A DNA stretch of 64,000 nucleotides, taken from contig NZ_ASSJ01000004.1 of NCBI RefSeq assembly GCF_000473895.1, positions 62,001 to 126,000 of the forward strand, read 5' to 3'. The position numbers were made by a program, and so were the translations under genes. Numbering within the stretch: position 1 is the first letter of the stretch; every line of letters begins with the position of its first letter. The DNA comes from Rubidibacter lacunae KORDI 51-2. Its GTDB lineage: Bacteria; Cyanobacteriota; Cyanobacteriia; Cyanobacteriales; Rubidibacteraceae. Below the pieces are notes generated by a model. That model ran no database searches and was not told where the DNA came from. It saw only the letters and a list, made by a program, of their open reading frames with translations. Positions 32,219 to 37,084 of the stretch are shown here, piece by piece.

Positions 32219-32580
32219 TATTCAAGTCCGAGTAGTTGCGACCTGCAGTTGCTTCAACGATACTCGATTTCCATTGCAGTCGTCCGTTGCCCAGCACACC
32301 AGCGGGTTCCGATCCCGAGCACGCTACCTTGCATCGGGGGATTTGGGGATCGGCGAACTGACTTCGCACCAACCATAGCGGCGATCGATTCAATGAGACT
32401 AATAAAAATCGTTACTGTCAACGGGAAGGCTCGATATAACTTTTTTAATCGGTTTAACAAGATGGCGATCGCCTTTTCAGTGTGGTATAAGAATCGTGTT
32501 CGGACGTGGGTAGTATAAGGACGTAATGCGTAGATTTCCCTTCCTACTTGCGTGCGGGAGTCTCGGGGGAGCTCGAAATA
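32219..32580. other. 362-base intergenic region between divergent genes
   Basis: It separates the CHAT gene (minus) from the sugar transferase (plus) and must hold both promoters. The part at 32390-32510 is AT-rich. No gene or repeat was recognised. Confidence 0.45.
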
Positions 32581-33303
32581 ATGGCTGTGGGATTCCGTCT
32601 GGCTGATGCAGAAGGGCCTCTACCTCGCAAGGAATACAAGGGAGCAATAAGAGCGACGCGCTCGCCCCGCCCCACGGGGTTGGCTACTTCAACCAGCCAT
32701 CCGGCTGTGACGAGTTCGATCAAGCGGATGCTCGACATATTGGGGGCTCTTGTCGGGTTGATATTGACAGCGTTGCTGCTGCCTTTGGTGGGGATCGCAA
32801 TTTACTTAGACGATCCGGGTCCGATTTTCTACCGCCAGCAGCGGGTTGGACTGAAGGGCAAATGTTTCCTAATTTGGAAGTTCCGCTCCATGGTGCGCGA
32901 CGCCGAGGAAATGCAGCATCTGGTCGAGAACCAGGCCAACGGTTATATCTTCAAAAACGAACGCGACCCGCGGGTTACGCGAGTCGGGCAGTTCTTGCGG
33001 CAGTCAAGTCTGGACGAATTTCCTCAGTTCTGGAACGTCCTGCGCGGCGAGATGAGCTTGGTCGGTACGCGTCCGCCCACGGTTTGTGAAGTCAAGCAGT
33101 ACGAGCCACATCACTGGCAGCGGTTAGATATCAAACCCGGCTTAACCGGCGAGTGGCAGGTAAACGGCCGCAGTGATGTCAAGGACTTCGAAGAGGTTGT
33201 CCGCATGGACTTGTACTATCTGCATCGCTGGTCAATCGCCTACGACCTACAAATTATTGCCCAAACGGTACTGGTCGTCCTGCGCCGTACAGGAGCCGTT
33301 TAG
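32581..33303 (+). CDS. Bacterial sugar transferase (polyisoprenyl-phosphate hexose-1-phosphate transferase)
   Basis: 240 residues from the ATG at 32581, with GGGGGAG upstream. These enzymes transfer a sugar-1-phosphate to undecaprenyl phosphate, starting exopolysaccharide or O-antigen synthesis at the membrane. One hydrophobic helix (residues 47-75, LGALVGLILTALLLPLVGIAI) ends in DDPGPIFYRQQRVG. The catalytic dyad region is QSSLDEFPQFWNVLRGEMSLVGTRPP, followed by KPGLTGEWQVNGR. This is the short form without the N-terminal multi-helix domain of WbaP. No glycosyltransferase cluster is adjacent. Confidence 0.9.
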   Translation: MAVGFRLADAEGPLPRKEYKGAIRATRSPRPTGLATSTSHPAVTSSIKRMLDILGALVGLILTALLLPLVGIAIYLDDPGPIFYRQQRVGLKGKCFLIWKFRSMVRDAEEMQHLVENQANGYIFKNERDPRVTRVGQFLRQSSLDEFPQFWNVLRGEMSLVGTRPPTVCEVKQYEPHHWQRLDIKPGLTGEWQVNGRSDVKDFEEVVRMDLYYLHRWSIAYDLQIIAQTVLVVLRRTGAV

Positions 33304-33843
33304 GCACAGTAAGGGTTCTGTTTAGCTTTCGCATCAGAGGAGATCGCTCCATAGGATGGCAGCAATCTTGCTGATGTTGCTGCTTTTGCATTGATGCGCA
33401 TTCACATTGATATTCAGTGCGTTTGGACGGGACGATCGCGACCTGGCTGGGGAATAATTTGGTGTGGGCAATAATGATGCCTCAAAGTTCGCCTGTGCAT
33501 AGATTTCCATGAATCAGGGGATTCCGAGGTTCCGCCTCAGGATCCGGAACTAAGATTCTTGAAACCATGAAAACCTAGCCCGTCGGAGAAACTCTCGCAC
33601 GAATACAACGCACTCGTCTCTAAGTCTAGAACTAGAAACATTTGGCGTGCACGTAAGTAGAGTCGCGCCCGACTTTCGATATCGTTGCTGGGGTTGGTAA
33701 ACGCGCCCTTGGCTTCAAGTCGATACCGATGCGGTCGGGCAGCACGGTTTGACAACTCGTCTTTGGACGGCGAGATCGGGGCGCGGTACCTTAAGTAACT
33801 GCTGCAGGGGCAGAGCACGATATTTCAAGGAGAACGGCTGGTT
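33304..33843. other. 540-base intergenic region, nothing recognised
   Basis: A 93-codon minus-strand frame (33537-33818) has no coding character. The last bases before 33844 hold CAAGGAG, the ribosome binding site of the next gene. Confidence 0.45.
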
Positions 33844-34857
33844 ATGGGATGGCTCGATCGACGGACAGTGCGGGCGTTTGTCGGAGCGGCGATCGCGTCG
33901 GTACTAGCAGGAGTTACAGCGACGCAGGCACAGGAAGCAGAACGGCAACCGGTGCAGGTTGTGTTTGCCGCGCGGGTGGGCGATCGCGTATTTGCTTGTG
34001 GTGAAACCTACGATCTCGGACGGACGGCGATGCTGCTGCAGCCAGCAGATTTTCGCTTTTACGTCTCGAAGGTGGCACTGATCGACACAAACGGTCGTGC
34101 CGTTCCGGTCGTGCTGGAACAAGATGGGAAGTGGCAGCACAAAGACTTAACGCTGCTGGATTTTGAGGACCGGACCGGCGCGTGCGACAACGGGACCGTC
34201 GAGACCCGCGATCGCGTGGTCGGGACTGTGCCTGCAGGGGACTATCGCGGGGTGCGCTTCCTTTTGGGCGTACCTTTCGACCTCAACCATGCCGATGCTG
34301 TCACGGCACCGTCGCCGCTCAACCTAACCTCGATGTGGTGGAACTGGCAGGGCGGATACAAATTCCTACGCCTCGACTTAAGCGCGCCGATGGCGGCGGC
34401 GGTGGATGGCACGATGCCGGATATGCCAAATATGTCCGATGTTAGCAATCATGGCGGTCATGGCGGTCATGACGGTCGCGAAAGCAAACAACACGGTAGC
34501 AGTCACGGACACCACGGTGACAATCATGTCAGCCACAGCAGCGGTTATTCGCTGCACCTGGGCAGTAGTGGCTGCGAAGTACCAGTTGGCGCGCGCCAGC
34601 CCACCCACTGCCGCTATCCCAATGTCGTTGAAGTGACGCTTGAGGGTTACGAGCCCGGACGAAGTGTCGTGGTGGCAGACCTCGGCGCGCTGGTTGCCAA
34701 CAGCGACCTCAGTAGCAATGCACCCGACACGCCGCTCGGTTGCATGTCCGGCCCCGACGATGCTGATTGCCAGCCAGTATTCAACCAACTCGGGCTGCCC
34801 TTTGCGGCTGCAAACGCAGGAGACGACGAGGTGCAGCACTTCTTCCGGCTCGAATAG
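33844..34857 (+). CDS. mbnP: MbnP-like copper protein (four-Cys metallo-mystery family) with Met/His-rich insert
   Basis: 337 residues. A signal peptide ends near residue 30 (TATQAQ), so it is exported. The MbnP/TIGR04052 pattern is strong: VFAARVGDRVFACG, QPADFRFYVSKVAL, LLDFEDRTGACDNGT, GVRFLLGVPFDLNHAD, LTSMWWNWQGGYKFLRLDL, LHLGSSGCEVP, and GCMSGPDDADCQPVF. Cys residues are 52, 114, 244, 256, 300 and 309. In methanotrophs MbnP binds copper and one Trp is turned to kynurenine by the di-haem enzyme MbnH; Trp165, 166 and 168 are candidates. Residues 191-232 hold an insert with five Met/His-rich runs, absent from the core. No mbnH gene is in the window. Confidence 0.85.
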   Translation: MGWLDRRTVRAFVGAAIASVLAGVTATQAQEAERQPVQVVFAARVGDRVFACGETYDLGRTAMLLQPADFRFYVSKVALIDTNGRAVPVVLEQDGKWQHKDLTLLDFEDRTGACDNGTVETRDRVVGTVPAGDYRGVRFLLGVPFDLNHADAVTAPSPLNLTSMWWNWQGGYKFLRLDLSAPMAAAVDGTMPDMPNMSDVSNHGGHGGHDGRESKQHGSSHGHHGDNHVSHSSGYSLHLGSSGCEVPVGARQPTHCRYPNVVEVTLEGYEPGRSVVVADLGALVANSDLSSNAPDTPLGCMSGPDDADCQPVFNQLGLPFAAANAGDDEVQHFFRLE

Positions 34858-35575
34858 CAGGTCTCTCGAATACCGCTTTTGGCCCGCAACCGAATTACTT
34901 GATGGTGGACCTCAAGACAAGGGCGCGTTCGAACCGCTTAGCTTCTTCATCCACTTGCAAGCAACCCTGCAGGCCATCCTCCCCAACCAGATGCGTGGGA
35001 TTGGTTTATTCCCAGCAAGACAAATTATTCTGTCCGATAAGGACAGCGCGGGTTGAAACAAGAGGCGATCGCAGACGTCGGAAAAATCAAGAAGTCTAGA
35101 CAATCAGATTGTGCGGTGGCGATTGCCATGGCAACTCAGCACCTGCGAGGTTTATGGGAAGCAGAACTCCAGGACATCTTGCCCGGTGCATCGGGCAGTT
35201 TCTTCTTAGGATTTAGTTGCTGCTCGCCGAAAAAGTATGGGGAAGCGGCTCCGTAATTCAGCCACCCTGGATGTTGCTGTTACCTTGGATCGCGTTCTGC
35301 GTCGTTTATCTGCTCAACCAGACTGAATGTGTTCGCCGCAGCCTGCAAGTTCGCTCGATGGGACTGCCATGGATACCGTCGAACTCCATGGCATAGGCTC
35401 AATTGTGAGTTTCTCGCCCAGGTTTGTTGCGACGCATCACCTCGATAGTGCAGCGTCAAGAAATTTTTTTGGTTTCTCATCCTCTCATACTCTTGTTAAA
35501 AGGAGAGTCCCCAAAGATAGCCAACTCTAAATCTTGGACTTGGCAGAGCACTAGTTTCTATACAAGTAATGTTTC
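34858..35575. other. 718 bases without a supported gene
   Basis: Short frames such as 35053-35256 use TTG starts and have no family match. No di-haem peroxidase gene (the usual partner of mbnP) is present on either strand. A CCATGG pair near 35370-35395 is not convincing as a site. Confidence 0.45.
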
Positions 35576-37084
35576 GTGAACAACTCCGAGCGTATCCCAG
35601 AACCGGTTTCAGCTCTGATGGTCGTGGGGACGACCTCTCACGCGGGCAAGTCGCTGTTGACAGCAGCAATTTGCCGGATTCTCAAGCGGCAAGGCTATCG
35701 CGTGACGCCGTTCAAGGGTCAGAATATGGCGCTCAATGCTTATGCGATCGCCGATGGCGGCGAGATCGGCTACGCCCAAGCGGTGCAGGCGTGGGCTGCA
35801 GGACTCGAACCGGCGATCGCGATGAATCCGATCCTGCTCAAGCCCCAAGGCGACATGACCTCGCAAGTGATTCTGGAGGGCAAAGCTGTCGGGCGCACGC
35901 GCGCGGCGGACTACTATCGCGACTATTTCGAGCGGGGTTGGCAAGCCATTCAGCGATCGCTGCAACAGCTCGCTCGTCATTACGAGTTCGTCGTTTGCGA
36001 AGGCGCGGGTAGTCCGGCAGAAATCAACCTCAAGCATCGCGACTTGACGAACATGCGCGTTGCCAGATACCTGAATGCGCCGACGTTGCTCGTGGTCGAT
36101 ATCGATCGTGGTGGGGCGTTCGCCCACGTAGTCGGGACTTTGGCATTGCTCGATTCTGACGAACGCGCATTGATTAAGGGCGTCGTCATCAATAAATTCC
36201 GCGGACAGCGATCGTTGCTCGAATCGGGCATCCAGTGGCTAGAGAACTACACGGGAGTTCCAGTTGTCGGCGTAATTCCTTGGCTCGATCGCCCCTTTCC
36301 GGCCGAAGATTCTCTGGATTTATTCGAGCGACGGGGACGCAGGCGCGATGCCGACCTCGAGATTGCCGTCGTGCGACTGCCGCGCATTGCTAACTTCACG
36401 GATTTCGATCCGCTCGTGGCAGAACCGAGTGTCTCGCTGCGCTACGTAATGCCGGGCGAGGCGATCGGGCAACCAGATGCTGTCGTGATTCCCGGCTCGA
36501 AAGCTACGCGATCCGATTTGGAAACCCTGCGAGAACGCGGCACGCTCGCAGCACTCCAGTCCTACGCCACTGCTGGCGGAACGGTCGTTGGCATTTGCGG
36601 CGGCTTGCAAATGCTCGGTCGCACGATTGCCGATCCGCACGGTTTTGAAGGCGACGCCGGCACCTCAGAGGGATTGGGATTGTTGCCACTGGAAACCGCG
36701 ATCGCTGCCGAGAAACTCACGCAGCAACGCACGACGCGATCGCGCTGGCCGCTGGGCGAGCTGCCGGTTGAAGGCTACGAGATCCACCAAGGCAGAACGG
36801 CAGCGATCGCTCCCGAATGCATGCAGATGTTTGCCGATTGCGACCTCGGGTTTGTGCATGCGGGGCGATCGCATTGGGGCTGTTATTTACACGGCGTCTT
36901 TGAGAACGGTGCGTGGCGACGGGCGTGGCTAAATCAGTTGCGATTGCGTCGAAACTTGGCACCATTATCGCTCGAGGTACCCCATTACCGACAGCAGCGA
37001 GACGCATCATTTGATGCGATCGCCGACGCGATCGACACCCATCTCGACCTAACACCACTGCTACCAAAGCACGCTGCAAAGTAA
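35576..37084 (+). CDS. cobQ: Cobyric acid synthase
   Basis: 502 residues, GTG start. CobQ amidates four carboxyl groups of adenosylcobyrinic acid a,c-diamide using glutamine and ATP. The N-terminal synthetase domain has the P-loop VVGTTSHAGKSLLTAA, FKGQNMALNAY, LLKPQGDMTSQVIL, VCEGAGSPAEINL and VDIDRGGAFAHVVG. The glutaminase domain has VVIPGSKATRSDL, the catalytic Cys in VGICGGLQMLG near residue 340, GYEIHQGRT and LHGVFEN with its His. Length is normal. It precedes the kinase gene at 37190 with 105 bp. Confidence 0.96.
   Translation: MNNSERIPEPVSALMVVGTTSHAGKSLLTAAICRILKRQGYRVTPFKGQNMALNAYAIADGGEIGYAQAVQAWAAGLEPAIAMNPILLKPQGDMTSQVILEGKAVGRTRAADYYRDYFERGWQAIQRSLQQLARHYEFVVCEGAGSPAEINLKHRDLTNMRVARYLNAPTLLVVDIDRGGAFAHVVGTLALLDSDERALIKGVVINKFRGQRSLLESGIQWLENYTGVPVVGVIPWLDRPFPAEDSLDLFERRGRRRDADLEIAVVRLPRIANFTDFDPLVAEPSVSLRYVMPGEAIGQPDAVVIPGSKATRSDLETLRERGTLAALQSYATAGGTVVGICGGLQMLGRTIADPHGFEGDAGTSEGLGLLPLETAIAAEKLTQQRTTRSRWPLGELPVEGYEIHQGRTAAIAPECMQMFADCDLGFVHAGRSHWGCYLHGVFENGAWRRAWLNQLRLRRNLAPLSLEVPHYRQQRDASFDAIADAIDTHLDLTPLLPKHAAK

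Follow-up and report, generated by a model that had tools for sequence, protein, structure and literature searches.

A cyanobacterial mbnP gene separated from its predicted partner gene mbnH in Rubidibacter lacunae KORDI 51-2

MbnP and MbnH form a pair that is conserved far outside methanobactin producers (PMC3621798), and an mbnP gene that stands by itself raises the question of whether its product acts alone or with a partner encoded elsewhere in the genome. Such a gene is found at positions 33844-34857 (forward strand) of the window examined in this study, a 64,000-nucleotide stretch of Rubidibacter lacunae KORDI 51-2 DNA, where it encodes a predicted exported copper protein of 337 amino acids. 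This protein scored 269.5 bits against the NCBI MbnP model TIGR04052 (cut-off 140) and 132.7 bits against the Pfam MbnP family PF20243 (cut-off 27), and its sole sequence match in the PDB was 7l6g (E 5.8e-34). A structure predicted with 17 related sequences (mean pLDDT 72.6) returned chains of 7l6g as its top six fold matches (E 7.6e-21 to 1.7e-19), and no PDB match under E 0.001 was obtained beyond these chains. The profile, sequence and fold matches agree with the membership proposed in the preliminary description of the locus: the product is a genuine MbnP, an assignment far past chance, and a genome-wide profile search identified one MbnP copy in this organism.

By-eye inspection of the sequence predicts an N-terminal signal peptide covering about residues 1-30 and ending in ATQAQEA (33844-33933, forward strand), within which residues 7-28 have pLDDT values below 50. 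An AAGGAG upstream of the gene resembles a ribosome-binding site, while no sigma-70-like promoter was detected near mbnP and no known RNA families were detected within positions 32500-36000 of the window. Approximately 0.6 kb downstream of mbnP lies an intergenic repeat of 107 bases (window 35445-35556) with long inverted ends, CTAGTGCTG...CAGAGCACTAG, which looks like a small MITE-type element. Six more copies occur elsewhere in the genome (73-82% identity), and none of the copies listed is on contig C51 beside the mbnH gene described below.

All six cysteines named in the preliminary description (residues 52, 114, 244, 256, 300 and 309) are at those positions in the protein, and in an alignment of 17 rows of MbnP sequences (A1) C52, C244, C256, C300 and C309 are invariant and C114 is nearly so. 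The WWNWQGGYKF segment is also where that description had placed it; it carries the WxW motif (W165-W166-N167-W168; 34336-34347, forward strand), in which W166 and W168 are both invariant in A1. From the work on Methylosinus MbnP, we take W166, the first Trp of the motif, to be the predicted kynurenine site. Two histidines are likewise invariant in A1: His149 of the sequence LNHAD (34288-34290, forward strand), a candidate copper ligand, and His238 of HLGS (34555-34557, forward strand), at which the conserved core begins again after a variable loop.

The absence of mbnH from the flanks of this gene, noted earlier, extends to the entire window, where neither a profile search nor a tblastn search with the organism's own MbnH gave a match. 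A search of the whole genome, which the preliminary description had itself put forward as the way to refute a solitary MbnP, identified a single mbnH on contig C51 (40138-41142, reverse strand; TIGR04039, about 511 bits; cut-off 362.85). Counted from a GTG start, its product has 405 amino acids with two CxxCH haem motifs, at 89 (CATCH) and 243 (CFHCH); NCBIfam names it an MbnH family di-heme enzyme, and the PDB entry nearest to it in sequence is the di-heme enzyme 6e1c (E 1e-110). This mbnH is intact and full-length, and the genome therefore holds one MbnH per one MbnP. On contig C4 (207501 bases) mbnP occupies positions 95844-96857, more than 95 kb from both ends, and C51 (51829 bases) extends more than 10 kb beyond mbnH on either side. 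Even as neighbouring contigs, C4 and C51 would therefore keep the two genes at least about 106 kb from each other. An ABC transporter and a GYF-domain protein are among the products encoded near mbnH, where no copper genes were seen by eye. Searches for a vestigial mbnH beside mbnP and for a vestigial mbnP beside mbnH turned up only weak matches, of about 20-30 bits, and most of the matches close to mbnP lie inside a neighbouring gene. No upstream motif shared by the two genes was found, the best 16-base match (12/16) being equalled in 56 of 60 shuffles; this comparison gave no sign of co-expression of the unlinked pair.

The distribution of the two proteins was surveyed in 390 genomes of the class Cyanobacteriia. 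Every one of the 38 genomes with an MbnP sequence (a count that leaves out G310, with an MbnP fragment of 21 residues) also contained an MbnH sequence (Fisher p about 1e-48, uncorrected for shared ancestry), and four of the 390 had partial MbnH-like stretches without MbnP. In 36 of the 38 genomes, mbnH lies downstream of mbnP on the same contig and strand, with a median gap of 159 bases between the profile matches; one of these adjacent pairs, that of G097, looks like a degraded remnant. The genes are apart in the remaining two, R. lacunae KORDI 51-2 and G082, and among the nine genomes of its own family R. lacunae KORDI 51-2 is the only one with MbnP. Of 19 related loci from a second collection, 18 have mbnH after mbnP, and the other one runs into a contig edge. 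No copper-related neighbour recurs, mbnP and mbnH being the only genes present in more than three of 18 cyanobacterial loci.

These results suggest that R. lacunae very probably possesses an ordinary MbnP/MbnH pair whose genes have been separated and whose products work in trans, the distant partner that the preliminary description had offered as an alternative; each sequence feature tested as a requirement of such a pair is present in the genome, in trans. In Methylosinus, MbnH reportedly acts on the WxW motif of MbnP, turning its first Trp into the kynurenine on which Cu(I) binding depends. By analogy, the single MbnH encoded on the separate contig would oxidise W166 of MbnP to kynurenine, and this residue would allow the MbnP core to bind Cu(I). 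Both proteins are presumably secreted and would meet in the periplasm, and because they would do so as exported products, linkage of their genes should not be required. The usual mbnP-mbnH pair may simply have been split apart in Rubidibacter. The literature searched contained no biochemical evidence for any cyanobacterial MbnP/MbnH pair.

An alternative is that this MbnP acts alone, with the distant MbnH unused or serving another substrate and a Met/His-rich loop forming the main copper site. The unlinked genes and a loop with nine His and four Met would be in keeping with such a role; however, the WxW motif and core histidines are retained, and this reading fails because the genome contains an intact mbnH for its one intact mbnP and the two co-occur completely across the class. 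A solitary MbnP is thus very improbable. Still less credible is that the separation is an artefact of a contig misjoined around one of the genes: the assembly does consist of 99 contigs, but both genes are interior to their contigs and each is surrounded by unrelated intact genes.

A different history, in which one of two ancestral pairs lost mbnH and the other lost mbnP, so that the present pair mixes two lineages, is possible but rather unlikely. It would be a variant of the history with the function the same, and it can be compatible with the explanation of a pair separated in the genome. In its favour is G082 (loci L051/L089 and L078/L088), the other cyanobacterium in which the two genes lie on different contigs, both of them again contig-interior. 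In trees of 46 MbnP and 46 MbnH sequences, the G082 MbnP groups with that of G376 and the MbnH with that of G203, both with strong support, and these differing affinities suggest a mixed pair. No remnants of lost partner genes were detected at the G082 loci. For Rubidibacter itself, no remnant of a lost gene is detectable beside either mbnP or mbnH, and both proteins form long branches within a region of the cyanobacterial group that the trees do not resolve; since neither is firmly placed in its tree, their common origin is not proven. In both trees, a cyanobacterial-type mbnP-mbnH pair from a contig labelled Candidatus Gracilibacteria (L013) is nested among cyanobacteria, and this label is likely a binning error.

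The loop between the WxW segment and His238 comprises residues 175-237 (34366-34554, forward strand), and the Met/His-rich run makes up its variable end. It sits between a strand at residues 173-180, directly after the WxW segment, and a strand at residues 234-240 carrying His238, and its residues 184-213 and 215-232 have pLDDT values below 50, in keeping with a flexible loop. For comparison, the span between the WxW segment and the HLGS motif was examined in 47 cyanobacterial-type MbnPs, including that of L013. Its length ranges from 24 to 110 residues (63 in Rubidibacter), and its His content is 9.4%, compared to 1.1% in the remainder of the protein. At least one His is present in the loop of all 47 proteins and at least two in 42, while none of eight non-cyanobacterial MbnPs (Pseudomonadota, Myxococcota and Sericytochromatia; a small sample that drew on plasmid records) has a His there. 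The His-bearing loop is thus typical of cyanobacteria and not special to the Rubidibacter protein: the insert pointed out earlier exists and its cyanobacterial character is supported, but it is not peculiar to this MbnP. Three or more Met occur in only four of the 47 loops, that of Rubidibacter among them, which makes the Met run less widespread than the His residues. Cyanobacterial MbnPs carry a flexible, fast-evolving surface loop whose position in the fold does not vary, and which may help to gather copper. A more speculative and rather unlikely possibility is that the loop serves, in cyanobacteria specifically, as a second site that collects copper and passes it to the kynurenine site, in which case these MbnPs could be multi-metal periplasmic copper buffers.

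Compared to the MbnP of Methylosinus trichosporium OB3b (7l6g), the Rubidibacter protein shares the WxW motif, the cysteines and a C-terminal GCMS...DC segment; along the fold match the two are 28% identical. No long His-rich loop is present in the Methylosinus protein, Rubidibacter residues 186-230 falling between two aligned blocks, and the organism that carries its gene produces methanobactin. The MbnP on plasmid A of Trichormus variabilis ATCC 29413 is 41% identical over 99% of the protein and also has a His-bearing loop (4 His in 29), but there mbnH is directly downstream of mbnP. RefSeq already names this T. variabilis protein an MbnP, so a cyanobacterial MbnP is not new; what is uncommon here is the gene arrangement and the loop feature. 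MopE and CorA are copper proteins with a tryptophan-derived kynurenine and are made beside a MauG-like enzyme (PMC3621798). These methanotroph proteins and their di-haem partners have the general idea in common with MbnP/MbnH, although the MbnP sequence is without marked similarity to either (PMC3621798).

The present study removes a false lead, that of an MbnP without MbnH, and indicates that the two genes can be unlinked and yet both be kept. Copper is required in cyanobacteria for plastocyanin and oxidases; given this need and the one plastocyanin-type protein encoded by the Rubidibacter genome, a copper role of MbnP/MbnH outside methanotrophs is a reasonable subject of study.

Five plasmid records give the gene that follows mbnP the product name 'methanobactin export MATE transporter MbnM' (L091:4967-6118, L092:3783-4952, L093:4038-5222, L094:3891-5051 and L095:3812-5083). 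All five proteins contain two CxxCH motifs, and the four that were scanned (L093 excluded) are above the MbnH cut-off. Judging from these sequences, the name looks wrong for the five genes in the mbnH position, and it would hide mbnH from readers of the annotation. On plasmid 3 of Deinococcus radiodurans (L097:2851-4705), an MbnP-family gene with no match to the WxW...HxGS loop pattern is followed by a two-haem peroxidase, which scores 263.5 bits and so falls under the MbnH cut-off of 362.85, and then by copC and copD.
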